The notes beneath the pieces were generated by a model. It ran no database searches, was not told the origin of the DNA, and saw only the letters and a program-made list of their open reading frames with translations. DNA of 64,000 bases from assembly GCF_024128855.1 (NCBI RefSeq), contig NZ_JAMYDV010000011.1, positions 1-64,000 of the forward strand. The letters run 5' to 3'. The translations under genes and the position numbers were made by a program. Below are positions 19,466-47,494 of this stretch, piece by piece (position 1 is the stretch's first letter; each line of letters starts with the position of its first letter). The DNA is from Rhodovulum tesquicola (GTDB lineage: Bacteria; Pseudomonadota; Alphaproteobacteria; Rhodobacterales; Rhodobacteraceae).

Positions 19466-20245
19466 TCAGATCGCGCGCTCGACCATCATCTTCTTGATCT
19501 CGGCAATCGCCTTGGCCGGGTTCAGGCCCTTGGGGCAGGTCTTGGTGCAGTTCATGATCGTGTGGCAACGATAGAGCTTGAACGGATCCTCCAGCTGGTC
19601 CAGCCGCTCGCCGGTCGCCTCGTCACGCGAGTCGATGATCCAGCGATAGGCATGCAGCAGCGCGGCCGGTCCCAGATACTTGTCGCCGTTCCACCAGTAG
19701 GACGGGCAGGCCGTCGAGCAGCTGGCGCACATGATGCACTCGTAAAGCCCGTCCAGCTTCCTGCGATCCGCGGGCGACTGGCGCCATTCCTTGACCGGCT
19801 CGTTGGTCTCGGTCTCCAGCCAGGGCATGATCGAGGCGTGCTGGGCGTAGAAATGGGTCAGGTCCGGGACCAGATCCTTGACCACCGGCATGTGCGGCAG
19901 CGGGTAGATCTTCACCACGCCCTTGATCTCGTCCATGCCGTAGGTGCAGGCCAGCGTGTTGATCCCGTCGATATTCATGGCACAAGAGCCGCAGATCCCC
20001 TCGCGGCAGGAGCGGCGGAAGGTCAGCGTCGGGTCGATCTCGTTCTTGATCTTGATCAGCGCGTCCAGGACCATCGGCCCGCAGGTGTCGAGATCGACGA
20101 AATAGGTATCCACCCGCGGGTTTTCCCCGGTGTCGGGGTCCCAGCGGTAGATGCGGAACTCGCGCAGATTGGTGGCCCCCGCCGGTTTCGGCCAGGTCTT
20201 GCCGCTGCGGATCACCGAGTTCTTGGGGAGCGTCAGTTCAACCAT
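19466..20245 (-). CDS. sdhB: Succinate dehydrogenase iron-sulfur subunit
   Basis: 259 residues. Three clusters are visible: [13 protein letters not shown] for [2Fe-2S], [15 protein letters not shown] and [17 protein letters not shown] for [4Fe-4S] and [3Fe-4S]. It carries electrons from the SdhA flavin to ubiquinone at the membrane anchor. Last gene of sdhCDAB, ten bases after sdhA, with a GAGGAGAC ribosome binding site. Confidence 0.98.
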
Positions 20246-20255
20246 ATCCGTCTCC

Positions 20256-22061
20256 TCAATAGACCCGCGCCTTGGGCGCGATCTTCTTCGGGTCGATGCC
20301 GCCCTCGTCGAGGGTGGTCAGCGGCTCCAGCTTGACCGGGCGGTAGGCCAGGCGCACCCTGGGGCCGTCGACCCAGGCCAGCGAATGCTTGCGCCAGTTG
20401 GTGTCGTCGCGGTCGGGGTAGTCCTCGTGGGCATGTGCGCCGCGGCTTTCCTTGCGCGCCTCGGCGGCGACCACGGTGGCCAGCGCGTTGGGCATCAGGT
20501 TGGTCAGTTCCAGCGTCTCCATCAGGTCCGAGTTCCAGATCAGCGACCGGTCGGTGACCTTGATGTCGTCCATCTTGCCCGCGACGGCGGCCATCTTCTG
20601 GCAGCCCTCGGCCAGCGTCCTGTCGGTGCGGAAGACCGCGGCATCGGCCTGCATGGTCTTCTGCATCTCCAGCCGCAATTCGGCGGTTGTCAGGTTGCCC
20701 CTGGCATGGCGCAGCCCGTCGAAGCGGGAGAGCGCCGCGTCGATCGAGGCCCCGTTCGGGCTGGGCACCGCCGTGTTCGGATCGACCACGTCCCTGGCCC
20801 GGATCGCGGCGGCGCGGCCGAACACCACAAGGTCGATCAGCGAGTTGGAGCCCAGCCGGTTCGCACCGTGCACGCTGGCACAGCCCGCCTCGCCCACCGC
20901 CATCAGGCCGGGCGCGATGTTGTCGGGATTGTCCGCGGTCGGGTTCAGCACCTCGCCCCAATAGTTCGTGGGGATGCCGCCCATATTGTAATGCACGGTC
21001 GGCAGAACCGGGATCGGCTCGCGCGTCACGTCGACACCGGCAAAGATCTTGGCGCTTTCGGAAATGCCGGGCAGGCGTTCGGCCAGAACCTCGGGCGGCA
21101 GGTGGGACAGGTTCAGGTGGATATGGTCCTTGTTCGGCCCGACGCCCCGGCCCTCGCGGATCTCGATGGTCATGCAGCGGCTGACCACGTCGCGCGAGGC
21201 GAGATCCTTGTAGGTCGGCGCATAGCGTTCCATGAACCGCTCGCCTTCCGAGTTCGTCAGATAGCCGCCCTCGCCGCGCGCGCCCTCGGTGATGAGACAG
21301 CCCGCGCCATAGATGCCGGTGGGGTGGAACTGCACGAATTCCATGTCCTGAAGCGGCAGCCCCGCGCGCGCCACCATGCCGCCGCCATCGCCGGTGCAGG
21401 TATGGGCCGAGGTCGCGCTGAAATAGGCCCGGCCATAGCCCCCCGTCGCCAGCACCACCATCTTGGCGGCAAAGACATGGATCGTGCCGTCGTCGAGCTT
21501 CCACGCCACCACGCCCTGGCATTGCCCGTCCTCGGACATGATCAGGTCGATGGCGAAATACTCGATGAAGAATTCCGCCTTCTGTTTCAGGCTCTGGCCA
21601 TAGAGCGTGTGCAGGATGGCATGCCCCGTGCGGTCGGCGGCCGCACAGGTGCGCTGCACCGGCGGGCCTTCGCCGAACTCGGTGGTGTGGCCACCGAAGG
21701 GGCGCTGGTAGATGCGGCCCTTCTCGGTGCGGGAAAACGGCACGCCGTAATGTTCCAACTCGTAGACCGCCTTGGGCGCCTCGCGCGCGAGGTATTCCAT
21801 GGCGTCCGTATCGCCCAGCCAGTCCGACCCCTTGACCGTGTCATACATGTGCCACTGCCAATGGTCCGGGCCCATGTTGCCAAGGCTGGCCGCGATGCCG
21901 CCCTGGGCCGCCACCGTGTGCGAGCGGGTCGGAAAGACCTTGGTGATGCAGGCCGTCCGCAGGCCCTGTTCGGCCATGCCCAGCGTCGCGCGCAGCCCCG
22001 CGCCACCGGCGCCGACCACCACAACGTCGTATTCATGCGTCTCGTATTCGTAAGCGGCCAT
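20256..22061 (-). CDS. sdhA: Succinate dehydrogenase flavoprotein subunit
   Basis: 601 residues. [21 protein letters not shown] binds [19 protein letters not shown] contains the His that holds FAD covalently, and [23 protein letters not shown] forms the substrate pocket. Oxidises succinate to fumarate in the TCA cycle and respiratory complex II. Eighteen bases after sdhD. Length is normal. Confidence 0.98.
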
Positions 22062-22079: not shown

Positions 22080-22451
22080 TTACAGCGCGATGCGGATGAC
22101 CGCGTAAAGACCGGCCGCCATGGCCGTGTAGCTGACGCAGATCATCGCGATCAGCAGTATCGTGCGGCGGATGCCGCGGGTGTAATCCTCGATGGCCGTC
22201 TGCGCGCCCTTGCGGAAATGGTAGATCCCCACCCACAAGGTCAACAGCGCCACCAGCGCCGGAAACGGGCGCGAGAAGGTGGCGACCACCTCTTCATGGC
22301 TGCCGCCCAGCGTGCGGCCGAAGACCAGAACGAAGGCCGGGATCAGCCCCGCCAGCGCCACGCCGGTCACGATCAGGATCCAGTGATGTTCGGTCCCGCT
22401 CTTGGCGGCGCCAAGGCCCAGCGCGCGCTTGCGGTCGGTCAGATAACGCAT
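22080..22451 (-). CDS. sdhD: Succinate dehydrogenase membrane anchor subunit
   Basis: 123 residues with three predicted membrane helices (WILIVTGVALAGLIPAFVLVFG, FPALVALLTLWVGIYHFRKG, ILLIAMICVSYTAMAAGLYAVI). GIYHFRKGAQTAIEDYTRG carries the conserved haem/quinone-region residues of alphaproteobacterial SdhD. With SdhC it anchors SdhAB in the inner membrane. Start at 22451 fits the family N-terminus (MRYLTDRKRA). Eleven bases after sdhC. Confidence 0.93.
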   Translation of the reverse strand: MRYLTDRKRALGLGAAKSGTEHHWILIVTGVALAGLIPAFVLVFGRTLGGSHEEVVATFSRPFPALVALLTLWVGIYHFRKGAQTAIEDYTRGIRRTILLIAMICVSYTAMAAGLYAVIRIAL

Positions 22452-22462
22452 GGCTTCCCCCC

Positions 22463-22846
22463 TCAGACGACCAGCACGGTCAGCAGCGTCAGCACCGCCG
22501 AGCCGCCGATCACCGCCCAGCCCAGCGCCTCGGCCGTCTTCAGCTCCAGCCCGCGGCCGGTATCCCACAGCAGATGCCGCAGGCCCGCCAGCGTGTGATA
22601 CCACAGCGCCCAGAGCGACAGGGTCAGCACCAGATCGCCGAACCACGAGGTCAGCACCCAATCGGCGCGGGCAAAGGCCTCGGGGCCCTTGGCGGCGGCC
22701 AGGAACCACCACACGATCAGGATCACCGCCACGATCAGCGCATTCCCCGTGACCCGGGTCAGGATCGAGGTGACAGAGGTGATCTGCGGGCGATAGACCT
22801 GAAGATGCGGCGAAAGCGGCCTGTTACCGCGGTTGAAGTCAGCCAT
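22463..22846 (-). CDS. sdhC: Succinate dehydrogenase cytochrome b556 subunit
   Basis: 127 residues. RPLSPHLQVYRPQITSVTSILTRVTG is the SdhC signature (SPHL...SI.HR.TG type), followed by three membrane helices; the haem-ligand region is HTLAGLRHLLWD. First gene of sdhCDAB. About 120 bases upstream lie a pair of GTGATCAC palindromes and a further 23-bp palindrome, so this promoter is likely under tight control. Confidence 0.96.
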   Translation of the reverse strand: MADFNRGNRPLSPHLQVYRPQITSVTSILTRVTGNALIVAVILIVWWFLAAAKGPEAFARADWVLTSWFGDLVLTLSLWALWYHTLAGLRHLLWDTGRGLELKTAEALGWAVIGGSAVLTLLTVLVV

Positions 22847-22935
22847 GGCGTGCCTCTTGTCTGGGCGCAGCTATCGCCCGATCTGATAACGGTTTCTGCG
22901 CCCTTGTCACGGCTTGCGCCGCGCTTCGGGCGTGA

Positions 22936-22958
22936 TTTTTCGTCCGCCGGACGAAAAA
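22936..22958. promoter_or_regulatory. Perfect 23-bp palindrome in the sdh promoter region
   Basis: Arms TTTTTCGTCCG (22936-22946) and CGGACGAAAAA (22948-22958) flank one central C. Both strands have T before and A after the GC core, the reverse of an intrinsic terminator, so an operator is the better reading. It lies 90-112 bases before sdhC, next to the GTGATCAC pair. Confidence 0.55.
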
Positions 22959-22967
22959 ACCGGGTTT

Positions 22968-22998
22968 TGTGATCACGCCAACGCGGCATGTGATCACA
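22968..22998. promoter_or_regulatory. Paired GTGATCAC operator upstream of sdhC
   Basis: GTGATCAC occurs at 22969-22976 and 22990-22997, exactly 21 bases apart, with TTT outside the left copy and AA outside the right. The same layout is found upstream of sucC (28797 and 28818). A single copy sits in front of the GntR gene at 38610. Confidence 0.7.
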
Positions 22999-23013
22999 AC
23001 CCGGCGGACCGCC

Positions 23014-24048
23014 TTACATCGGGGTCAACGCCCAGTAGTCGAGGTCCAGCAACACATCGCCCAGATATTTCCCGTCCTCGCCGCGCAGCGCGCCCGGCAC
23101 CGCCCCCGGCTTGACCGCCACCAGCCGCAGCCGCAGCGCGCCGACGCCGGGCGCGGCCGTCTCGGCCTTGTCCAGCACCTCGGACCAGGCCGCGACCGTA
23201 TCGCCCGCGAAACAGGGATTGGCATGCGCGCCCGCGTTCAGCCCGACGATCATCTGTGCATTCGCCAGCCCGTTGAAGGACAGCGTGCGCGCCAGGCTGA
23301 TGACATGGCCGCCATAGATCAGCCGCCGGCCATCCTCGCGCAGGGTGGCGTCGAAATGCACCTTGGAGGTGTTCTGCCACAGCCGCGTGGCCAGCATGTG
23401 CTCGGCCTCCTCGACCGTCACGCGGTCGACATGGTCGATCACCTCGCCCACCGCGTAATCGCCCCAGCGATGCGGCTCGCCCGCCAGCGTGAAATCGTAG
23501 CGCGTGAAATCCAGCCCCTCGGGCAGCACCAGATCCCGCGGCGCCACGCTGTCGGCCAGCGCGGGCACCACCGTTTCGGGCGCGGGGGCTGTGGCATCGC
23601 GCTTGCGCACCATCACCCAGCGCACATAGTCCATGACCAGTTCGCCGCGCTGGTTCAGCCCCCGCGTGCGCACCCAGACGACACCCGATTTGCCGTTCGA
23701 GTTCTCCTTGAGCCCGATCACCTCGGATTCGGAGCGCAGCGTGTCGCCGGGCCAGACCGGCCGGTGCCAGCGCCCCTCGGCATAGCCCAGATTGGCGATG
23801 GCGTTCAGGCTGATATCCGGCACGGTCTTGCCGAACACGGTATGGAACGCGATCAGGTCGTCCATCGGCGCGCCGGGCAGCCCGCAGGATTGCGCGAAGG
23901 CATCCGAGGAACAGACCGCGTGCCGCGCGGGATAAAGCGCGTGGTAAAGCGCCCGCTCGCCGCCCGACAGGGTGCGCGGCACCGCATGCGCGATCACCTG
24001 CCCGACATGGTAATCCTCGAAGAAACGCCCCGGGTTGGTCTTCACCAT
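23014..24048 (-). CDS. mch: Mesaconyl-CoA hydratase (beta-methylmalyl-CoA dehydratase)
   Basis: 344 residues with two MaoC-like hot-dog repeats: the first starts FFEDYHVGQVIAHAVPRTL and the second RWGDYAVGEVIDHVDRVTVEEAEHM. This matches the double-hotdog mesaconyl-CoA hydratase of the ethylmalonyl-CoA pathway, which adds water to mesaconyl-CoA to give beta-methylmalyl-CoA. The neighbouring mcl2-type gene and pcc/mcm genes in the window support the assignment. Last gene of a tight four-gene minus-strand operon; the ATG at 24048 is four bases after the DUF1737 stop. Confidence 0.9.
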   Translation of the reverse strand: MVKTNPGRFFEDYHVGQVIAHAVPRTLSGGERALYHALYPARHAVCSSDAFAQSCGLPGAPMDDLIAFHTVFGKTVPDISLNAIANLGYAEGRWHRPVWPGDTLRSESEVIGLKENSNGKSGVVWVRTRGLNQRGELVMDYVRWVMVRKRDATAPAPETVVPALADSVAPRDLVLPEGLDFTRYDFTLAGEPHRWGDYAVGEVIDHVDRVTVEEAEHMLATRLWQNTSKVHFDATLREDGRRLIYGGHVISLARTLSFNGLANAQMIVGLNAGAHANPCFAGDTVAAWSEVLDKAETAAPGVGALRLRLVAVKPGAVPGALRGEDGKYLGDVLLDLDYWALTPM

Positions 24049-24052
24049 GACC

Positions 24053-24256
24053 TCACAACTCTCCCAGCTTGAGATCCGGGGCGTAAAGCCCCGGCACATC
24101 CTTCACCACCGCCTGCGCACAGCGCATCCTTCCGCTCGCCGGGTCATGCGCATAGGCGGGCGAGCCGTAAAGTTCCCACCCTTTGGCCAGCGCCTCGGTG
24201 ACCTTGTGGCAGAAGGCGGCGGTATCCTCGTCGGTCAGCAGGCGATAGGCGCGCAT
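24053..24256 (-). CDS. DUF1737 small protein
   Basis: 67 residues: YRLLTDEDTAAFCHKVTEALAKGWELYGSPAYAHDPASGRMRCAQAVVK fits DUF1737, a small alpha/beta domain of unknown role often found as a single gene. Its ATG overlaps the stop of the NnrU gene (TGATG), so the two are translationally coupled. It sits inside the mcl2/mch operon with no known part in that pathway. Confidence 0.75.
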   Translation of the reverse strand: MRAYRLLTDEDTAAFCHKVTEALAKGWELYGSPAYAHDPASGRMRCAQAVVKDVPGLYAPDLKLGEL

Positions 24257-24825
24257 CAGGCCGCGCCCGGCGCCGGCAGGGGCCAGACGCCCAGCCACAT
24301 GTGAACGCCAAGGATCACCAGGTAGAGCACCACGGAAATCACCCCCAGCTTGATGTCCCCCGCCAGGCTGCCGCCACGCCAGGTCGTGACCGGCTCCCTT
24401 GCGTTGATCAGCAGCACTTCGACAATCGCCCAGACCAGCAACCCGCCGAACAGCACGATGGACGCCAGATCGCCATTCACCAGCAGATGCGCCACCGCCC
24501 AGGTGGCAAAGCCATAAAGCATCGGGTGGCGGAACAACTGCCGCGCCCGGCTCTTGGAATTGCCGAGGCCAAAGAACACCACCGCCAGCAGCATCAGCGT
24601 GTTGTTGGCATGCACCATGAACCCGGGCGTCTGGTAGATCTCGGGCGCGGTGTTGCCGCGATAGCCGATCACCATCAGCACCACCGACAGGACCAGCGGC
24701 ACCGCAAAGAACGCCTTGGACGCCGCGCCGAAACGCTGGTCCAGCGCCGCACGCGGGCCGGGGAACAGCCGCTTGAACAGATGGGCAAAGCTCCAGAGCA
24801 GAACGCCGAGGATGATAAGGGTCAT
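24256..24825 (-). CDS. NnrU family membrane protein
   Basis: 189 residues with about six hydrophobic segments. MTLIILGVLLWSFAHLFKRLFPGPRA is the NnrU start; NTLMLLAVVFFGLGNSKSRARQLFRHPMLYGFATWAVAHLLVNGDLASIVLFGGLLVWAIVEV carries the conserved RHP...W..AHLL.NGD pattern. NnrU was first linked to nitrite/nitric oxide metabolism, but many copies lie outside denitrification loci, as here. It overlaps mcl2 by four bases (ATGA). Confidence 0.9.
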   Translation of the reverse strand: MTLIILGVLLWSFAHLFKRLFPGPRAALDQRFGAASKAFFAVPLVLSVVLMVIGYRGNTAPEIYQTPGFMVHANNTLMLLAVVFFGLGNSKSRARQLFRHPMLYGFATWAVAHLLVNGDLASIVLFGGLLVWAIVEVLLINAREPVTTWRGGSLAGDIKLGVISVVLYLVILGVHMWLGVWPLPAPGAA

Positions 24826-25682
24826 GTCACAGCCTCCAGTTGCGCGATCGCCGCCGCCTTGGCGAGCGTTTGTCGTGCCGTGACGATATGCAGATTCTCG
24901 ACGATGCGGCCATCCACAACGGCGATCCCCAGCCCGTTGCGCCGCGCCTCGTCGAAGGCGGCGATATGGCGGCGCGACAGTTCGATCTCGGCCATGGTCG
25001 GCGCAAAGACCGCATTGGCCGCGGCGATCTGTCCGGGGTGGATCAGGCTCTTGCCGTCAAAGCCCAGGTCGCGGCCCTGCGCGCATTCCGCGCGCAGACC
25101 CTCCTCGTCCTGAAAGGCGTTGTAGACCCCGTCGATGGCGACGATCCCATGCGCACGCGCCGCCAGCAGGCATTGGCTGAGGCTGGTGACCAGCGGCAGG
25201 CGGTCGGCGCGCGGGCGGCAGCGCAATTCCTTGATCAGGTCATTGGTGCCCATCACGAAGCCGCCGACCCGAGGATGGGCGGCCAGCGCATCCGCGTTCA
25301 GCACGCCGCGCGGCGTTTCCATCATCGCCCAGAGTTCCACCCCGTGGATCGCATCGCCCAGCGCATCCAGTTGCGCCGTGGTCTCGACCTTGGGCAGCAG
25401 CATCGCCTGCGCGCCGGTCCCGCGCATCGCGGTCACGTCATCGGCGCCCCATTCGGTATCCAGCCCGTTCACCCGCACGATCAGGAAGCGCGGCCCGAAG
25501 CCGCCCTCGCGCAGCGCCGCGGCCAGCAGGTCGCGCGCGGCGCGCTTTTCCTCGGGGGCGACGGCATCCTCCAGATCGAAGATGATCGCATCGGCGGGCA
25601 GCGTCCGGGCCTTGTCCAGCGCCCGCGCCTTCGAGGCCGGAATATAGAGAACGGAACGGAACGGGCGGGCACGCGGGTCCAT
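24822..25682 (-). CDS. mcl2: HpcH/HpaI-type lyase, probable (3S)-malyl-CoA thioesterase
   Basis: 286 residues of the CitE/malyl-CoA lyase superfamily. RSVLYIPASKARALDKA binds CoA, ADAIIFDLEDAVAPEEK has the metal-binding acids, VRVNGLDTEWGADDV the Arg, and GFDGKSLIHPGQI the CoA-binding end. The short CitE-like sequence beside mesaconyl-CoA hydratase fits Mcl2, which releases malate from malyl-CoA, better than the longer Mcl1. The ATG at 25682 follows GGGGAG. First gene of the mcl2-nnrU-DUF1737-mch operon. Confidence 0.82.
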   Translation of the reverse strand: MDPRARPFRSVLYIPASKARALDKARTLPADAIIFDLEDAVAPEEKRAARDLLAAALREGGFGPRFLIVRVNGLDTEWGADDVTAMRGTGAQAMLLPKVETTAQLDALGDAIHGVELWAMMETPRGVLNADALAAHPRVGGFVMGTNDLIKELRCRPRADRLPLVTSLSQCLLAARAHGIVAIDGVYNAFQDEEGLRAECAQGRDLGFDGKSLIHPGQIAAANAVFAPTMAEIELSRRHIAAFDEARRNGLGIAVVDGRIVENLHIVTARQTLAKAAAIAQLEAVT

Positions 25683-25870
25683 TGATTCTCCCCTTGGGTC
25701 ATTTTGTTGCGCCAATCACCATAGGCGGGACATAATCCGCAACCCCTTTCATGCCGCATCGCAGAAAAATCTTGCGCTGCGATGCAGAGCAGCGCGCGCT
25801 GCCCTCAGGCTTTGTTGCGCATTCCCCTTCAGGCTCGGCGCTGACAGCCACCCCGAACGGAGCCTTGCCC

Positions 25871-27389
<1,519 letters not shown>

Positions 27390-27402
27390 TCCCGGGCATA
27401 TC

Positions 27403-27429
27403 CGGGCCGGTCCCGCGCGGTCCGGCCCG
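27403..27429. terminator. Hairpin between mdh and the convergent PAP2 fusion gene
   Basis: CGGGCCGG (27403-27410) and CCGGCCCG (27422-27429) form an 8-bp GC stem with an 11-base loop, filling the gap between two convergent stops. No T-run on either side, so a bidirectional terminator is inferred from position. Confidence 0.5.
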
Positions 27430-28650
27430 TCAGAACCGATAGGCCAGCCCGATATTCAGCGCGTTGGTGATCACCTCGGTTTCCAGCGCGCCGCCGCCCG
27501 TCAGATCCGCGTCGATCCGCGACCAGGTGCCCTTGTATTCGCCGAACAGCGCGGTCCGGTCGGTCAGCCGCCATGTCGCCCCGAAGATCACCGCCACGCT
27601 CGGGCCGACCAACTGGTATTCCTGCGTGACCGGCGCACCGGGGCCGGTCCGCACCTCGACATGGGGGATGACCACGCCCGCGCTGGCGCCTGCATAGGGT
27701 GTCCAGGCACGGGACGGATCGGGCCATCGCCGGATGATGCCCGCGGTCAGGTTGTTCAGACCGTCGGTGAATTCCAGCATTTCGAAGCCCGACGCCGCCA
27801 GCGTTTCGTCATCGGCATAAATCTTGGTGTGGTTGAAATCCAGCGTGTAGCCGAAGGTCTCGCTCCGCCACCAGACCCCGCGCAGGCCCCAATGCGGCGG
27901 CATGTCGAAGGGTCTGCCCTCCCAGCCCGCCGTGAAGTCGAAATCGCCCGCGCCCGCCGGATCCGATCCGCGCACATTGCTATGCGGCGCCGACTGGTGG
28001 CCGGTATAAACCCAAAGCTCCATCTCGGCCTTCGTCGCGCTGCCCGTCGCCGCGGCAAGGGCCGACAGGGCGAGGATGGCACCGCGACGGCGCCAGCGCC
28101 GCGCCCGTCGGCGCACACCGCGCAAGACAGGCGTCACCGCCCGGAGCCACAGCCCGCGAAACGCCCGGTCGAACGCCCCGAGCTTCAGCACGGCCACCGC
28201 ATAGCCCAGAACGGCCCCCGCCAGCGTCTGCCAGATCGTGTGCTTGCCCGCGTCGATGCGCGATCCGCCGACGAACCCGGCCGACAGCACCGCCAGCGCC
28301 TGCGCGCCCGGGCTGTCGCGCAGGCAGCCCATGACCAGGGCGGTCGCGCCGAAACTCGCCGCCGCGGTGTGGCCCGACGGGAATCCATGCCCGCCGCCAC
28401 TCGGCCGCTGGTTGATCGGCGCATCGCCCAGGCCGAATTTCGGCCCCTTGATCGCCGACTCTAGCAGCAGGTATCGCCCCGTATAGCGCACGCCATCGCC
28501 CTGCGCGATGGCACAGGCCAGCCCGGCAAGCGGCAGGACGACCTGCAGCCGGTCACCGATCAGCTGCGCCTGCCGGTCGGACAGCACCACGACTAGCGAA
28601 ACGATGGCAAGCATGCCAAGCAAGGCCAGGTGGCGCATCAGACAGGACAT
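27430..28650 (-). CDS. PAP2 phosphatase fused to an LpxQ-like lipid A oxidase barrel
   Basis: About 406 residues. Residues 1-155 are a PAP2 phosphatase with membrane helices: KFG...NQRP (71-83), FPSGHT (90-95) and GGSRIDAGKHTIWQ (128-141), with Gln141 where the motif usually has Asp. A basic stretch, RRRARRWRRR (180-189), is followed by a hydrophobic AILALSALAAATGSATKA that looks like a second, internal signal peptide. Residues 209-406 are beta-rich (VYTGHQSAPHSNV, FDFTAGWEGRPFD, LNIGLAYRF with terminal Phe) and resemble rhizobial LpxQ-type outer-membrane lipid A oxidases. The start is uncertain: GTG 28743, ATG 28677 or ATG 28650, the last having the best upstream GGAG. Confidence 0.78.
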   Translation of the reverse strand: MSCLMRHLALLGMLAIVSLVVVLSDRQAQLIGDRLQVVLPLAGLACAIAQGDGVRYTGRYLLLESAIKGPKFGLGDAPINQRPSGGGHGFPSGHTAAASFGATALVMGCLRDSPGAQALAVLSAGFVGGSRIDAGKHTIWQTLAGAVLGYAVAVLKLGAFDRAFRGLWLRAVTPVLRGVRRRARRWRRRGAILALSALAAATGSATKAEMELWVYTGHQSAPHSNVRGSDPAGAGDFDFTAGWEGRPFDMPPHWGLRGVWWRSETFGYTLDFNHTKIYADDETLAASGFEMLEFTDGLNNLTAGIIRRWPDPSRAWTPYAGASAGVVIPHVEVRTGPGAPVTQEYQLVGPSVAVIFGATWRLTDRTALFGEYKGTWSRIDADLTGGGALETEVITNALNIGLAYRF

Positions 28651-28795
28651 CCCGGCAACCCGCTCCGGACCGCGCATGCGGACGATTTGCGCCTGTATCG
28701 CTTCGGCATGTAACGTTTTTGCAAGGCGGCCGAACGTCCGCACCGTTTCGGGCGACAGGATGCCGGCCGACGGGGCGGCGGAATCCCGGAGGCTT

Positions 28796-28826
28796 TGTGA
28801 TCACGCTTTTCTCGGGTGTGATCACA
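28796..28826. promoter_or_regulatory. Paired GTGATCAC operator upstream of sucC
   Basis: GTGATCAC occurs at 28797-28804 and 28818-28825, 21 bases apart, with TTT before the first and AAA after the second. This is the same layout as upstream of sdhC. The near copy ends 107 bases before the sucC ATG. The divergent PAP2 fusion gene could share it. Confidence 0.7.
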
Positions 28827-28932
28827 AAGGTCGAAAACATCGCGGAATCCCGCCGGTCCCGGCCGAAAACCATTTCGTCGCACCCTGTTCCGTGCTTAGA
28901 GATCCGGAAATCGACAAGCATGGGACAGCGTG

Positions 28933-30126
28933 ATGAACATCCACGAATATCAGGCCAAGGCCCTGTTGCGCAGCTATGGCGCGCCGGTGTCCAAGGGCCA
29001 TGTCGTCACCCGCGCCGAAGAGGCCAAGACCATCGCGGGCGAGGTTGACGGCCCGCTCTGGGTGGTCAAGGCGCAGATCCACGCGGGCGGCCGCGGCAAG
29101 GGCCATTTCCTCGAACCCGAGGCCGGCGAAAAGGGCGGCGTCCGGCTGGCCCGCTCGGTCGGAGAGGCCGCGGAAGAGGCCCGCAAGATGCTGGGCCGCA
29201 CGCTGGTCACCCACCAGACCGGCCCCGCGGGCAAGCAGGTCAGCCGCGTCTATATCGAGGCGGGTTCGGACATCGCGCGCGAGCTTTATCTCGCCATGCT
29301 GATCGACCGGCAATCCTCGCGCATCGCCTTCGTCTGCTCGACCGAGGGTGGCATGGATATCGAGGAGGTGGCCGCCAGGACCCCCGACCGCATCCTGTCC
29401 TTCACCATCGACCCCGTGACCGGCTACCAGCCCTGGCATGGCCGCCGCGTCGCCTTTGCCCTCGGCCTCGAAGGCAAGCAGATCCGGCAATGCTCGACGC
29501 TGCTGGGCCAGCTTTACAAGCTGTTCCTCGAACGCGACTGCGAGATGATCGAGATCAACCCCCTGATCGTCACCGATACCGGCGACCTGAAATGCCTCGA
29601 CGCCAAGTTCGCCTTCGATTCCAACGCGCTCTACCGGCAGGAGGACGTCCTGTCGCTGCGCGACGAGACCGAGGAAGACCCCAAGGAACTCGCCGCCTCG
29701 AAATATGACCTGAACTACATCGCGCTCGATGGCGAGATCGGCTGCATGGTCAATGGCGCGGGGCTGGCGATGGCGACCATGGACATCATCAAGCTCTACG
29801 GCGCGGAGCCCGCCAATTTCCTCGACGTGGGCGGCGGCGCGACCAAGGAGAAGGTGACCGAGGCGTTCAAGATCATCACCTCCGACCCGAACGTGAAGGG
29901 GATCCTCGTCAACATCTTCGGCGGCATCATGCGCTGCGACGTGATCGCCGAAGGCGTGGTCGAAGCCGTCCGCGAGGTCGGCCTGAAGGTGCCGCTGGTG
30001 GTCCGGCTCGAAGGCACGAATGTCGAGAAGGGCAAGGCGATCCTCAACGGCTCGGGCCTCGACGTGATCGCGGCGGACGACCTGTCGGACGCGGCGGAGA
30101 AGATTGTCAAAGCGGTGAAGGGGTAA
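28933..30126 (+). CDS. sucC: Succinyl-CoA synthetase (ADP-forming) beta subunit
   Basis: 397 residues with an N-terminal ATP-grasp domain: [57 protein letters not shown], and the CoA-ligase domain ending [22 protein letters not shown]. It makes succinate and ATP from succinyl-CoA with SucD. The ATG at 28933 is chosen over the adjacent GTG at 28930 because MNIHEYQ is the family start. First gene of sucCDAB; the paired GTGATCAC operator lies upstream. Confidence 0.98.
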
Positions 30127-30131
30127 GGCGA

Positions 30132-31016
30132 ATGGCCGTTCTCGTCGACGAAAACACCAAGGTCATCTGCCAGGGCTTCACCGGCTCCCAGGGCACCTTC
30201 CACTCCGAACAGGCGATCGCCTATGGCACGAAAATGGTCGGCGGCGTGACGCCCGGAAAGGGCGGGCAGAAGCATCTCGACCTGCCGGTCTTCGATTCCT
30301 GCCACGAGGCGGTGGCGAAGACCGGGGCGAATGCCACGGTGATCTATGTCCCGCCGCCCTTTGCGGCCGACTCGATCCTCGAAGCCATCGACGCCAGGAT
30401 CCCGCTGATCGTCTGCATCACCGAAGGCATCCCGGTGCTGGACATGATGACGGTCAAGCGCGCGCTCGAAGGGTCGGATTCAGTGCTGATCGGCCCCAAC
30501 TGCCCCGGCGTCATCACGCCCGAGGCCTGCAAGATCGGCATCATGCCCGGCCATATCCACCGCCGCGGCAGCGTGGGCGTGGTCTCCCGCTCGGGCACGC
30601 TGACCTATGAGGCGGTCAAGCAGACCACCGATGTGGGCCTCGGCCAGTCCACCTGCGTCGGCATCGGCGGCGACCCGATCAAGGGGACCGAGCATATCGA
30701 CGTCCTCGAATGGTTCCTCGCCGATGACGAAACGCAAGCGATCATCATGATCGGCGAGATCGGCGGCTCGGCCGAGGAGGAAGCCGCCCAGTTCCTGCGC
30801 GACGAGGCCAGACGCGGCCGCAGGAAACCCACCGCGGGCTTCATCGCGGGCCGCACCGCACCGCCCGGCCGCCGCATGGGGCACGCGGGCGCCATCGTCG
30901 CCGGCGGCAAGGGCGGCGCCGAGGACAAGATCGAGGCGATGAAAGCCGCCGGGATCGTGGTGGCCGACAGCCCGGCACGCCTCGGCGAGGCCGTGCTGAC
31001 AGCCATCAAGGCATAA
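30132..31016 (+). CDS. sucD: Succinyl-CoA synthetase alpha subunit
   Basis: 294 residues. [28 protein letters not shown] binds Co[13 protein letters not shown] follows, [23 protein letters not shown] is the SCS-alpha signature, and the phosphorylated His lies in [15 protein letters not shown]. Five bases after sucC. A GC hairpin separates it from sucA. Confidence 0.98.
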
Positions 31017-31082: not shown

Positions 31083-34055
31083 ATGACCGAGCAAAGCCCC
31101 AACACCGCCTTCCACGACTCGTCCTTCCTGCAAGGGCATAATGCCGAGTATGTGGAACAACTCTACGCCCGCTACGCCAACGACCCCGACACTGTCGACG
31201 AGCAATGGCGCCGCTTCTTCGCGGACCTGGGCGATGACGAGGTCTCGGTCAAGCGCGAGGCGGCGGGCCCCTCCTGGGCGCGCCGCGACTGGCCGCCCGC
31301 GCCCAATGACGACCTGACCGCCGCGCTGGATGGCCAATGGCCCGGCCTGCCCCCGGTCAGCGAGGCCCGCGCCGCCGAGGACAAGATCCGCGAAAAGGCC
31401 GAGGCACAGGGCGTCAAGGTCACCGATGACGAGATCAAGCGCGCGGTGCTCGACTCGATCCGGGCGCTGATGCTGATCCGGGCCTACCGGATACGCGGCC
31501 ATCTGGTCGCCGATCTGGACCCGCTGGGCCTGCGCAACGCCACGCCGCACCCGGAACTCGACCCCGGCTCCTACGGCTTCACCGATGCCGACATGGACCG
31601 GCCCATCTTCATCGACAACGTGCTGGGCCTTCAGGTCGCCTCGCTGCGCGAGATCCTCGCCATCGTGAAACGCACCTATTGCGGCACCTTCGCGCTGCAA
31701 TACATGCACATTTCCGACCCCGAGCAATCCGCCTGGCTCAAGGAACGGATCGAGGGCTACGGCAAGGAAATCAAGTTCACCCGCGAAGGCCGCCGCGCGA
31801 TCCTGAACAAGCTGGTCGAGGCCGAGGGCTTCGAGAAGTTCCTGCATGTGAAATACATGGGCACCAAGCGGTTCGGCCTTGACGGCGGCGAGGCGCTGAT
31901 CCCGGCGATGGAACAGATCATCAAGCGCGGCGGCGCGCTGGGGGTCCGGGAAATCGCCATCGGCATGCCGCACCGGGGCCGCCTGTCGGTTCTGGCCAAT
32001 GTGATGGGCAAACCCTATCGCGCGATCTTCCACGAATTCCAGGGCGGCAGCTTCAAGCCCGAGGATGTGGACGGTTCGGGCGACGTGAAATACCACCTTG
32101 GCGCGTCAAGCGACCGGGAATTCGACGGCAATGTGGTGCACCTGTCGCTGACCGCGAATCCCTCGCATCTCGAGGCGGTGAACCCCGTGGTGCTGGGCAA
32201 GACGCGCGCCAAGCAGGAACAGGCGAACGACCGCGAGCGGCGCACCGTTCTGCCGCTGCTGCTGCATGGCGATGCGGCCTTTGCGGGCCAGGGCGTCGTG
32301 GCGGAATGTTTCGGCATGTCGGGGCTGGTCGGCCATCGCACCGGCGGCACGATCCATATCGTCGTGAACAACCAGATCGGCTTTACCACCGCACCGCATT
32401 TCAGCCGGTCCAGCCCCTATCCCACCGATATCGCGCTGATGGTCGAGGCGCCGATCTTCCACGTCAATGGCGACGACCCCGAGGCGGTGACCCATGCCGC
32501 CAAGGTCGCCATCGAGTTCCGCCAGAAATTCGGGCGTGACGTGGTGATCGACATGTTCTGCTATCGCCGCTTCGGCCATAACGAGGGGGATGAGCCGATG
32601 TTCACCAACCCCCTGATGTATCAGAAGATCAAGAAGCACAAGACGACGCTGCAACTCTATACCGAACGTCTGGTGGCCGACGGGCTGATCCCCGAGGGCG
32701 AGATCGAGGACATGAAGGCCGCGTTCCAGTCGCATCTGAACGAGGAATTCGAGGCCGGCAAGGAGTACAAGCCGAACAAGGCCGACTGGCTGGACGGCCG
32801 CTGGTCCCATATCAAGCGCGGCGGCGGCGATGATTACCAGCGCGGCGATACCGCGATCTCCGAAGAGACGATGCAGGCGATCGGCCAGGGCCTGACCACC
32901 GTGCCCGAGGGCTTCGACCTGCACAAGACGGTGGGCCGGTTGCTCGACGCCAAGCGCGAGATGTTCGGTTCCGGCAAGGGGTTCGACTGGGCCACCGCCG
33001 AGGCGCTGGCCTTCGGCAGCCTGCTGACCGAGGGCTACCCGGTGCGTCTGGCGGGCCAGGACTCGATCCGCGGCACCTTTTCCCAGCGCCATTCCGCGCT
33101 GATCGACCAGAACACCGAGGAACGCTATTTCCCGCTGAACCATATCCGCAAGGGCCAGGCGAAATACGACGTCATCGACTCGATGCTGTCGGAATATGCC
33201 GTTCTGGGCTTCGAATACGGCTACAGCCTCGCCGAACCCAACGCCCTGGTGATGTGGGAGGCGCAATTCGGCGATTTCGCCAATGGCGCGCAGATCATGT
33301 TCGACCAGTTCATTTCCTCGGGCGAACGCAAATGGCTGCGCATGTCGGGCCTTGTCGTCCTGCTGCCCCATGGCTTCGAGGGCCAGGGCCCGGAACACAG
33401 TTCCGCCCGCCTCGAACGCTTCCTGCAGATGTCGGCCGAGGATAACTGGATCGTCGCCAATTGCTCGACGCCCGCCAACTATTTCCACATCCTGCGCCGC
33501 CAGTTGCACCGCAGCTTCCGCAAGCCGTTGATCCTGATGACGCCGAAATCGCTCCTGCGCCACCGGCTGGCGGTGTCCGAGGCCAAGGCCTTCCTGACCG
33601 GCTCCTCCTTCCACCGGGTGCTCTGGGACGACGCCGAAACCCACCGCGCCTCGGACTTCAAGCTGAAACCCGACGCCGAGATCCGCCGCGTCGTGCTCTG
33701 CTCCGGCAAGGTCTATTACGACCTTCTGGAAGAACGCGACGCCCGCGGGCTGGACGATGTCTACCTCTTGCGGATCGAACAATTCTACCCCTTCCCGGCG
33801 CTGAGCCTGGTGAAGGAGCTTGAACGCTTCCACGACGCCGAAGTGGTCTGGTGCCAGGAAGAGCCCAAGAACCAGGGCGCCTGGTCCTTCATCGAGCCCA
33901 ATCTCGAATGGGTGCTGACCCGCATCAACGCCCGCCACCACCGCCCGCATTATGTCGGCCGCCCCGCCGCCGCCTCGCCCGCCACCGGGCTCGCCAGCCA
34001 GCACAAGGCCCAACAAGCCGCGCTCGTCAACGACGCGCTCACCATCGAAGGGTGA
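31083..34055 (+). CDS. sucA: 2-oxoglutarate dehydrogenase E1 component
   Basis: 990 residues, full length. The short N-terminal helix that binds E2 ([40 protein letters not shown]) is followed by a thiamine-dependent E1 core: [30 protein letters not shown], the TPP motif VNGDDPEAV...[27 protein letters not shown], and [18 protein letters not shown]. Decarboxylates 2-oxoglutarate in the TCA cycle. GGGAGGA precedes the ATG; sucB follows after four bases. Confidence 0.98.
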
Positions 34056-36553: not shown

Positions 36554-37942
36554 ATGGCAAGCTATGACGTGATCATCATCGGCGCCGGCCCCGGCGGCTA
36601 TGTCTGCGCCATCCGCTGCGCGCAACTCGGCCTGAAAACCGCCTGCGTCGAAGGCCGCGAGACCTTGGGCGGCACCTGCCTGAACGTGGGCTGCATCCCC
36701 TCCAAGGCGCTGCTGCATGCCTCCCACCAACTCCATGAATCCCAACACAATTTCGAGAAGATGGGGCTGAAGGGCGCGGCCCCCAAGGTGGACTGGACCC
36801 AGATGCTCGCCTACAAGGACGAGGTCATCGCCCAGAACACCAAGGGCATCGAATTCCTGTTCAAGAAGAACAAGATCGACTGGATCAAGGGCTGGGCCAC
36901 GATCCCCGAACCCGGGCTGGTCACCGTCGGCGACGAGACCCACAAGGCGAAAAACATCGTGATCGCAACAGGTTCCGAACCCGCCACCCTTCCGGGGATC
37001 GAGATCGACGAGAAGCTGATCGTCTCCTCCACCGGCGCGCTGTCCCTGCCGAAGATCCCGAAGAAACTGGTCGTGATCGGCGCAGGCGTGATCGGGCTGG
37101 AACTGGGCTCCGTCCATGCCCGTCTCGGCACGCAGGTGACGGTGCTGGAATATCTCGACCAGATCACCCCCGGCCTGGATGCCGAGATCGCCCGCAGCTT
37201 CCGATCCATCCTGAAGAAACAAGGGCTTGAGATCATCACCGGCGCCGCCGTCCAGTCCGCCGAGGCGCTGAAGACCAAGGCAAAGGTGACCTACAAGCTC
37301 CGCAAGGATGACAGCACCCACCAGGTGGACGGCGATGTGGTCCTCGTCGCCACGGGGCGCAAACCCTTCACCCAGGGCCTCGGCCTCGACGCGCTGGGGG
37401 TGGACCTGACCCAACGCGGCCAGATCGCGACGGACGGCCAGTACAAGACCTCCGTCAACGGGCTTTACGCCATCGGCGACGCAATCGAGGGCCCCATGCT
37501 CGCCCACAAGGCCGAGGACGAGGGCATGGCCGTCGCGGAAATCCTCGCGGGCCAGAAAGGCCATGTGAATTATGGGGTTATCCCCGGCGTGATCTATACC
37601 GCGCCCGAGGTGGCGGCGGTCGGCGCGACCGAGGAAAGCCTGAAGGAAGCAGGCCGCGCCTACAAGGTCGGCAAGTTCTCCTTCATGGGCAATGGCCGGG
37701 CCAAGGCGATGTTCGCCGCCGACGGATTCGTCAAGATCCTGGCCGACGCGGAAACCGACCGCATCCTCGGCGCCCATATCCTGGGCCCCAATGCGGGCGA
37801 GCTGATCCACGAGATCTGCGTCGCGATGGAATTCGGCGCCTCCGCCGAAGACCTCGCCCGCACCTGCCACGCCCACCCCACCTGTTCCGAAGCGGTGCGC
37901 GAGGCGGCGCTCGCCTGCGGCGACGGGGCAATCCACAGCTAG
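36554..37942 (+). CDS. lpdA: Dihydrolipoyl dehydrogenase (E3)
   Basis: 462 residues. FAD-binding [19 protein letters not shown], redox disulfide in [22 protein letters not shown]-binding [20 protein letters not shown], and the C-terminal dimer domain with the catalytic His-Glu pair in [14 protein letters not shown]. Reoxidises lipoamide of the 2-oxoglutarate complex made by sucAB. GGGAGACC precedes the ATG. Convergent with the GntR gene. Confidence 0.97.
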
Positions 37943-37949
37943 GCCCCGC

Positions 37950-38600
37950 TCAGGTGGCCAGCATCCGCAGCCCCTGGGTCACGTCGGTCCGGATCGCCAG
38001 CCGCAGCGCGGGTTCATCGCCCGCCCGCAGCGCCGCCAGGATCATCCGGTGGTGCTGCGGCGGCTCGGTCCGGCCCAGGCGTCCGTAAAGCGCGCGCATG
38101 GTGGGGCCGAGTTGCAGCCAGACGGTTTCGGCCATGGCCAGCATCGCGGGCGCCTGCGCGCGCAGGTAAAGCGCGCGGTGAAACTCCAGATTGGTGCGGA
38201 TGAATCCCACCGCATCGCCGCGCGCCACCACCTCGCCGATCTCGGCATTGATCTTCTGCATCCGCTCGATCAGCGCCATATGGGCACGCGGCAGCGCGCG
38301 GCTGGCGAGTTCCGGCTCCAGCAGGGCGCGCAGGGCGGCCAGTTCCTCGATCCGCTCGTTCGACAACTCGGGCGTCGCGACCCGCCCCGAGGAGGACAGC
38401 GTCAGCGCGCCTTCGGCCACCAGTCGGCGCACCGCCTCGCGCGCGGGGGTCATCGACACGCCGAATTGCCGCCCGATGCCGCGCAAGGTCAGCGCGGCCC
38501 CCGGGGTCAGTTCCCCGTGCATGATCTGGGTTCTGAGCGTGCGGTAAAGCCGGTCATGGGCCGCGGTGCCCGTCTCGCCCGGCCGGGTCTGGATCAGCAT
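37950..38600 (-). CDS. GntR-family transcriptional regulator (FCD type)
   Basis: 216 residues. The winged helix-turn-helix (LRTQIMHGELTPGAALTLRGIGRQFGVSMTPAREAVRRLVAEGALTL) is followed by an all-helical FCD-like effector domain (RNE.. type: LRALLEPELASRALPRA, GFIRTNLEFHRALYLRAQAP, HHRMILAALRAGDEPALRLAIRTDV) with His and Asp that may hold a metal and a carboxylate. It lies beside lpd, and its own start region contains a GTGATCAC site matching the sdh and suc operators. It may correspond to the TCA regulator AkgR reported in Rhodobacter; that link is from memory. Confidence 0.93.
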   Translation of the reverse strand: MLIQTRPGETGTAAHDRLYRTLRTQIMHGELTPGAALTLRGIGRQFGVSMTPAREAVRRLVAEGALTLSSSGRVATPELSNERIEELAALRALLEPELASRALPRAHMALIERMQKINAEIGEVVARGDAVGFIRTNLEFHRALYLRAQAPAMLAMAETVWLQLGPTMRALYGRLGRTEPPQHHRMILAALRAGDEPALRLAIRTDVTQGLRMLAT

Positions 38601-38609
38601 GGATCGACT

Positions 38610-38617
38610 GTGATCAC
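38610..38617. promoter_or_regulatory. Single GTGATCAC site in front of the GntR gene
   Basis: The palindrome is centred about 13 bases before the GntR start codon, overlapping its ribosome binding region, a position suited to autorepression. No second copy lies 21 bases to either side. Confidence 0.55.
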
Positions 38618-38631
38618 GGGCGCGTCAAACG

Positions 38632-39324
38632 TCAATCGCCGAAGCGCACCCGATGCAGCGCCGCCCCGTTCGCGCGCAGCCAGGACCGCGGGGCGGCATA
38701 GTCGGGCATCAACCGGCGCACCACGGCCCAGTAGGCGGGGGAATGGTTCATCTCGGCCAGATGCGCGACCTCGTGGGCGGCGACGTAATCCAGCACCTGC
38801 GGCGGCGCCATGATGAGCCGCCAGGAAAACATCAGATCCCCCCGCGACGTGCAGGACCCCCAGCGCGAGCGGGTGTCGCGCAACGTCAGCCGTCCATAGG
38901 GGCGGCCCAGTGCGCCCGCGTGGCGGTCCACGGCCTCGGCCAGCGCGGCCCGGGCCTCGGCCTTGAGGAAGGCCTGCACCCGGCCCGCCACGCCCGCCGC
39001 GGGGCCGGGCACCGCCAGCGCCTCGTCGATCAGGCGCGGCGCGCGGCCGGGTCCGGTCACGATGGGCAGCGCGCGGCCGCGGAACGGCACGGTTCCGCCC
39101 AGCGCAACGGCGTGATCGTCGGGCCGTGCGGCCAGGTGGCCGCGGATCCAGCCCTCCTTTTCGCGCAGGAAGGCCAGCCCCTCGGCCATCGGCGCGCGGC
39201 GGGGCAGGGTCAGCGTCACCCGCCCGTCAAGCTGCGAGATGCGCAGCGAATAGCGCCGCGCCCGCGCCGACCGGCGCAGCGCGACCTCAAGCGGGGGATC
39301 GCCGGGAAGGCGCGTGCTGTCCAT
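38632..39324 (-). CDS. YgjP/SprT-like zinc metallopeptidase (DUF45)
   Basis: 230 residues. The zinc motif HEVAHLAEMNHSPAYW (H184, H188 and a later His) and RDTRSRWGSCTSRGDLMFSWRLIMAPPQVLDYVAAHE match the YgjP/DUF45 metallopeptidase domain. The N-terminus (YSLRISQLDGRVTLTLPRRA) is the usual small beta domain. Cytoplasmic protein, substrate unknown. It starts upstream of the GntR gene on the same strand. Confidence 0.9.
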   Translation of the reverse strand: MDSTRLPGDPPLEVALRRSARARRYSLRISQLDGRVTLTLPRRAPMAEGLAFLREKEGWIRGHLAARPDDHAVALGGTVPFRGRALPIVTGPGRAPRLIDEALAVPGPAAGVAGRVQAFLKAEARAALAEAVDRHAGALGRPYGRLTLRDTRSRWGSCTSRGDLMFSWRLIMAPPQVLDYVAAHEVAHLAEMNHSPAYWAVVRRLMPDYAAPRSWLRANGAALHRVRFGD

Positions 39325-46393: not shown

Positions 46394-47494
46394 ATGGCAT
46401 TGCCGGTGCGCGAACAGGTGACCTATTGGGGGATCGCGGCGGCGGTCTTCCTGGTGCTTTTGTGGTTTCTCGGCAATGTGATCACCCCCTTCGTGATCGG
46501 CATGGCGGTGGCCTATTTCCTCGATCCCGTGGCCGACCGGCTGGAACGGCTGGGGCTGTCGCGGGCGGGGGCGACGGTGGCGATCACGGCGGGCGCGGTG
46601 GTGATCTTCGTGGCGGTGGCGCTGCTGGTGCTGCCCACGCTGATCCAGCAGGCGATCAGCCTGGTCAATGCCGCGCCCGAGATCGCGCGCCAGGTCCAGG
46701 CCTTCCTGGTCGAGCGCTTTCCCACGTTGAACGACAACGGCTCGCCGATCTCCCGGACATTGGCCGGAATCGGCGACACGGTGCAGTCGAGGGGGGGCGA
46801 GGTGCTGAACGGGGTGATCGCCTCTCTGGCCAGCATCGTGAACGTGGTCGTCCTGCTGGTGCTGGTGCCGGTGATCACCTTCTACCTGCTGCTGGACTGG
46901 GACCGGATGGTGGCCCAGGTGGACCGGCTGCTGCCGCTGGACCACGCGCCGCAGGTGCGTCAGCTGGCCGGCGAGATCGACCGCACGCTGGCAGGCTTCA
47001 TCCGCGGCCAGGGCACGGTCTGCCTGATCCTCGGCATCTACTACGCCGCGGCGCTGAGCCTGCTGGGGCTGAAATACGGGCTGGTCGTGGGATTCACTGC
47101 GGGGATCATCTCGTTCATTCCCTATGTCGGCGCCATCGTGGGCGGCGCGCTGGCGATCGGGCTGGCGTTGTTCCAGTTCTGGGGCGAATGGTGGTTCATC
47201 GCGGGCGCGGCGGCGATCTTCGTGGCGGGCCAGATGATCGAGGGCAATGTGCTGACGCCCAAGCTGGTGGGCGGGTCGGTCGGGCTGCATCCGGTCTGGC
47301 TGATCTTCGCGCTGGCGGCCTTCGGCTCGGTCTTCGGCTTTGTCGGCATGCTGGTCGCGGTGCCGGTGGCGGCCGTTCTGGGGGTGATGGCGCGTTTCGG
47401 GATCGCGCAATACAGGGAGAGCCGGCTCTACCGCGGCCTTGCGGCCCTGGAAGATGCGCGCGACGGATCCGGGAAGGACGAGGACGCCGCCTGA
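46394..47494 (+). CDS. AI-2E family permease
   Basis: 366 residues with about eight membrane helices. [33 protein letters not shown] near the start, [14 protein letters not shown], then [29 protein letters not shown] and [21 protein letters not shown] are the conserved TqsA/YdiK pattern. Family members export varied small molecules or ions; the substrate cannot be told. GGGAGGGGC precedes the ATG. hdaA begins one base after its stop codon. Confidence 0.92.

Follow-up and report, generated by a model that had tools for sequence, protein, structure and literature searches.

The DNA studied here (hereafter the window) is a stretch of 64,000 nucleotides (nt) of Rhodovulum tesquicola (assembly GCF_024128855.1, contig NZ_JAMYDV010000011.1, positions 1 to 64,000), which contains the sdh and suc operons of the tricarboxylic acid (TCA) cycle, the lpd gene and, next to lpd, a gene coding for a regulator with GntR and FCD domains. 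The palindrome GTGATCAC occurs as a pair upstream of sdhC (22969 and 22990), as a second pair upstream of sucC (28797 and 28818), and as a single copy before the regulator gene (38610). Both pairs have a copy-to-copy period of 21 bases, with a spacer of 13; on the plus strand, TTT precedes each pair and AA (sdhC) or AAA (sucC) follows it. An initial annotation, made from the letters alone, had proposed these five positions, the spacing and the flanks, all of which are borne out by the scan of the window. It had also described the copy at 38610 as overlapping the start region of the regulator gene: this copy is indeed single and upstream of the gene, but it does not overlap the reading frame that begins at the ATG, ending 10 nt ahead of it.

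In total, GTGATCAC occurs 9 times in the window, whereas shuffled sequences have it 0.96 times on average (0 of 100 shuffles reached 9). The remaining four are intragenic: 27467 (in a PAP2-like open reading frame, ORF), 46478 and 46871 (AI-2E transporter gene) and 57823 (DUF4174 gene). A divergent tRNA-synthetase ORF on the opposite strand begins 78 nt after the copy at 46478-46485, a placement that is probably fortuitous.

In the 3.5 Mb genome, a search for pairs separated by 5-25 bases, of the kind that the initial annotation had called for, returns only those of sdhC and sucC. The reversed word gives 0 pairs in the same scan, but it contains CTAG and its composition is not matched, so that it is a weak and lenient control; genomes from outside the family are a better one (see below). 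When up to 3 mismatches are allowed at the same spacing, 75 places are found (1 with the reversed word), among which the two pairs are the only exact matches and none has one mismatch. The word TGTGATCACA is found at just two places in the genome, in the higher-coordinate copy of each pair. The features are collected in Table 1.

Table 1. Coordinates of the genes and of the predicted regulatory elements in the window
Feature	Position	Strand	Remarks
sdhC tandem operator (predicted)	22969..22997	-	GTGATCAC at 22990-22997 and 22969-22976, spacer 13
sdhC putative -35 box GTGACA	22905..22910	-	58 nt after the pair; from position and conservation
sdhC putative -10 region TTATCAG	22883..22889	-	by eye from the alignment; weak
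sdhC	22463..22846	-	
sdhD	about 22080-22460		between sdhC and sdhA
sdhA	20256..22061	-	
sdhB	19466..20245	-	2Fe-2S and 4Fe-4S domains
sucC tandem operator (predicted)	28797..28825	+	GTGATCAC at 28797-28804 and 28818-28825, spacer 13
sucC putative -35 region	28873..28878	+	offset +47/48 from the pair, TTT kept there in relatives; weak in this genome
sucC	28933..30126	+	ORF opens with GTG at 28930; ATG at 28933
sucD	30132..31016	+	named by gene order and similarity to the suc locus of R. sphaeroides
sucA	31083..34055	+	named by gene order and similarity to the suc locus of R. sphaeroides
lpd	36554..37942	+	
akgR ortholog	37950..38600	-	GntR winged helix-turn-helix (wHTH) and FCD domains, 216 aa
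Single GTGATCAC, putative self-repression operator	38610..38617	-	ends 10 nt before the ATG of the GntR gene
akgR putative -35 box TTGAC	38631..38635	-	18 nt ahead of the site; shares bases with the stop codon of the YgjP-like gene upstream

Identity of the regulator

The GntR protein RSP_0981 of Rhodobacter sphaeroides is reportedly AkgR, the subject of Imam et al. 2015, the central paper. The predicted targets of RSP_0981 are sucCD, sdhCDA and the genes for 2-oxoglutarate dehydrogenase (accessible part of PMC4344238), and GTGATCAC is listed among the binding sites of AkgR, which is termed an activator (accessible part of PMC6365646).

One genome of our set, G051, was recognised as R. sphaeroides because three published chromatin immunoprecipitation motifs are found at their published chromosome 1 coordinates; RSP_0981 was placed in it by gene order and published coordinates rather than from annotation. 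The order in G051 is lpd, sucB, sucA, sucD, sucC; sdhC, sdhD, sdhA, sdhB; a GntR/FCD gene; a YgjP-like gene. The regulator of the window has the GntR wHTH and the FCD domain expected of AkgR orthologs, is 79% identical to the G051 protein encoded after sdhB, and shares with it the YgjP-like neighbour; among the 19 FCD genes of G051, this is the only one near 2.74 Mb, the expected position of RSP_0981. The G051 locus also has both pairs, and no further exact GTGATCAC in 34 kb. The initial annotation had suggested that the GntR/FCD protein beside lpd might be of the AkgR type: it is an AkgR ortholog, with its sites before sdhC and sucC, and the regulon described here is the known AkgR regulon.

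The protein is 97-98% identical to its counterparts in Rhodovulum marinum and R. euryhalinum, which points to a Rhodovulum as its source, and it scores under the curated cut-off of the NCBIfam models for PdhR, LldR, CsiR, NanR and phnR_burk. Residues N137, H141, H184 and D206, presumably at or near the usual ligand positions of FCD domains, do not vary in any of the 121 distinct AkgR proteins compared. The recognition helix of AkgR orthologs reads SMTP (at least 97% at each position), and that of many FCD paralogs SRTP. A site is found before the gene itself in two divergent SMTP relatives (G122, G033) and in a relative from the class with SMMP (G302), and none was found before those of the GMTP relatives G195 and G021; the link between SMTP and the site is a lead only.

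The pair and AkgR across the Rhodobacteraceae

We searched 198 genomes of the family for exact GTGATCAC pairs with a gap of 9-17 and for close AkgR proteins (E-value below 1e-80; the next best is 1.9e-61). The pair is present in 175 genomes, 129 of which have exactly two (as read from the survey table), and a close AkgR is also present in 175. Both occur together in 171 genomes, the protein alone in 4, the pair alone in 4 and neither in 19, so that protein and pair agree in 190 genomes. The Fisher test gives p 5e-19 without tree correction, a value which overstates independence, since the well-supported branches of a SucC tree force only 2 changes of the pair label. On this tree (57 rows; G033 and G040 labelled with the protein, G019 and G096 without it, G054 omitted from the protein count), the pair label needs 8 changes, versus 14.1 in shuffles, and 8-9 on the best tree.

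Outside the family, the pair is found in 4 of 187 genomes of the class, and a close AkgR in 0 (best E-value 6.6e-44). The layout could have turned out to be absent from relatives or common elsewhere, which would have spoken against the initial annotation; it is neither. It is kept in most Rhodobacteraceae, and in several lineages it is gone together with the protein.

Where the protein seems to stand alone, G040 has a sucC pair with one mismatch, the only sucC-like gene found in G147 and G166 is 49-53% identical, and none was found in G155. G033 has an AkgR-like gene (46%) on its sucC contig, with its own site at -16. Among the 19 genomes that have neither, 16 have a sucC of at least 69% identity, and no upstream sequence matches the pair at more than 13 of 16 positions. 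Only a broken akgR was found in G157 and G109; in G157 the best upstream match (12/16) stands at -135, where the pair usually is, and may be its remnant. A decayed pair was also considered for G109 and rejected, the best match (10/16 at -132) being like the background of other pair-less genomes. G193 holds two close AkgR copies, one with a site before its gene (L079) and one without (L078).

For 39 of the 175 genomes with a pair, that of the window included, the downstream genes of 77 distinct pairs were examined: 34 pairs precede sdhC, 38 precede sucC and 1 precedes sucA (L059/L091, one place in G177). The spacer of the sdhC and sucC pairs is 13 in 65 of 72 and 12 in the other 7, with T before the pair and A's after it, most strictly at sucC. 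Three pairs with a spacer of 10 or 16 (L055, L113, L114), whose target was not found among the genes searched, look like chance. A third perfect pair of G042, with a spacer of 13 (L056, 1501-1529), lies near two ORFs that were tested and had no Pfam match.

Promoter layout and sign of control

We searched for the hexamer GTGAC[AT] 48-78 bases downstream of the pair, and obtained 124 matches in 122 of the 198 genomes. The gap is 57-60 nt in 102 of them; the others are 48-51 (6), 61-62 (2), 66 (3), 68-71 (9) and 77-78 (2), most of which correspond to a shift by one or two helical turns. With a period of 10.5, the 21 gaps outside 56-61 favour the phase of the main peak to an extent reached by 1 in 100,000 uniform draws (relatedness uncorrected). 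In the 28 of 34 aligned sdhC promoters that have the box, the distance between box and pair varies with a standard deviation of 4.6, versus 12.5 for that between box and start codon. An ungapped alignment of 38 sucC promoters shows TTT at +47 to +49, about one turn nearer than the sdhC box. As read from the sequences, this is how the sites of an activator tied to one face of the DNA are laid out, which does not in itself prove a contact with the polymerase.

A sigma-70 consensus scan of 22800-23060 detected no promoter; two sites resembling terminators were picked up on the plus strand. CceR-like sites ([AGT]GTT N6-8 AAC[ACT], from the accessible part of PMC4344238) were sought between pair and gene and discarded: they are present in 2 of 34 sdhC and 0 of 38 sucC regions, with about 1.5 expected in each. 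An A-tract, CGCCAAAAAAC, lies at a nearly fixed offset, about 24 nt after the pair, in 5 of 34 sdhC promoters and in further rows of the phase scan.

The single site was studied in 121 distinct akgR genes (at least 70% identity; mostly best-scoring hits, not a random sample). The exact palindrome is found within 100 nt upstream of 98 of them, starting 16-17 nt before the start codon in 67, while five control words give 0 of 121 in the same regions. In 94 of these 98 genes, TTGA[CT] lies 18-20 nt before the site, and in 69 of the 94 it starts 34-36 nt before the start codon; transcription may therefore begin at the start codon itself, and the akgR mRNA may be leaderless. The box contains the stop codon of the upstream gene in 55 cases. 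The idea that it is merely this stop codon was rejected, as the box is retained in 29 cases in which the upstream gene stops earlier. The initial annotation had the regulator repressing itself, and it was probably right: the site stands behind TTGA[CT], in repressor position.

We give a probability of about 0.83 to the reading in which the pairs are AkgR operators that activate sdh and suc, and the single site serves the self-repression of akgR. On each pair, two AkgR dimers would bind side by side, two helical turns apart, and the 21-base period makes it plausible that they share one face of the DNA. From there, with the -35 boxes of sdhC and sucC about 47-60 bp further downstream, AkgR would contact RNA polymerase, always from the same side of the helix, and so raise the transcription of sdhCDAB and suc; activation is the most likely sign of control for both operons. 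At akgR, a lone dimer between the -35 and -10 positions would block the polymerase and so limit the amount of AkgR. The effector would be a TCA-related acid. Whether one protein acts in both directions, with the number and place of the palindrome setting the sign (a phase-locked upstream pair activating two TCA operons, a single dimer on its own promoter repressing), is in our opinion an even bet.

Several observations weigh against this reading. The exact site is missing from 23 of the 121 akgR genes, namely from R. sphaeroides, on which the published studies of AkgR were done, and 22 more, including Rhodovulum kholense and R. visakhapatnamense; for this reason the case for self-repression is one of position and conservation. 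The well-supported tree branches force few changes, and three genomes (G019, G096 and G114; completeness 91, 77 and 100%) have the pair and no close AkgR that we could find, possibly on account of assembly gaps. In 53 of the 175 pair-carrying genomes there is no GTGAC[AT] 48-78 nt after the pair, and 4 of the 124 gaps (62 and 66) are out of phase: one belongs to a sucC pair (G146), two are second matches (G016, G123) and that of G169 has no explanation. The reversed word is poorly matched in composition, the sdhC pair of the window can fold (see below), and the support is computational.

It is improbable that AkgR represses sdh and suc from the pairs and is released by a TCA acid; repression of these operons, if that is what the initial annotation meant by control, is not supported. 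Many FCD proteins are repressors, and the site before akgR is in repressor position. However, AkgR is called an activator (accessible part of PMC6365646), and the pairs are not on the promoter but some 47-60 nt ahead of the putative -35 box, to which they keep their phase even though the box itself stands at varying distances from the start codon.

Slightly less probable still is that the pairs serve another regulator, such as a different GntR paralog, with AkgR as a mere neighbour. Candidates exist, with 5 FCD genes in the genome of the window, and more in R. sphaeroides, and some genomes have the pair without a close AkgR. In two of the four pair-carrying genomes outside the family, the pair (L311, 992-1020; L315, 1501-1532) adjoins a GntR/FCD gene whose product is 31-37% identical to AkgR, a hint that a wider subfamily may share a single DNA code. 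But it is AkgR that tracks the pair within the family and has the site before its own gene, while the three other FCD genes of the genome that could be aligned (out of four) have no site within their 3.4-kb loci and have SRT in place of SMT.

That the pair is a hairpin, either the terminator of the upstream gene or another RNA structure, is very unlikely: a twice-repeated palindrome can always fold, and the sdhC pair of the window does (z -3.6; 2 of 200 shuffles as good) with T's after it, but in 65 aligned pairs complementarity is lost about 3 positions beyond the pair, a T run after it is not the rule, its position is tied to the downstream promoter, and the akgR site is single. In the window, the sdhC pair lies within a longer inverted repeat followed by T's (22940-23020), and may therefore also end the transcription of the upstream hydratase gene.

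Comparison with known systems

AkgR and its motif, with AkgR as an activator, are already published (accessible part of PMC6365646). Among the papers listed by a literature search, none deals by title or abstract with paired sites or autoregulation of AkgR; Imam et al. 2015 was outside its reach, so that absence is unproven. With this exception, the phasing of the pair to GTGAC[AT] and the site before akgR were found in no accessible literature. What is added here is an operator layout that extends across the family, now linked to a regulator of the TCA cycle that had been described in one organism, together with a probable feedback loop that the model strain lacks. The predictions are exact: phase steps of about 10.5 bp, and a single self-site.

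McbR of Escherichia coli, whose targets we take to differ from those of the AkgR of the window, is the nearest solved structure by sequence (PDB 4p9f, E-value 3e-23). PS417_07240 of Pseudomonas simiae, a GntR protein involved in deoxyribonate use and 32% identical to AkgR, has been suggested to recognise GTGATCAC in front of the gene that encodes it; it belongs to another pathway, and a single palindrome at -47 to -40 is described there, no pair (accessible part of PMC6365646).

The closest system is AkgR of R. sphaeroides, which has the orthologous GntR/FCD protein, the motif, the sdh and suc operons and both pairs in common with the window. It differs in that akgR follows sdhB instead of adjoining lpd, and in that there is no exact GTGATCAC before akgR. 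Since the model strain is without the self-repression arm, a feedback loop may be absent from what has been published, and the model organism may be an exception.

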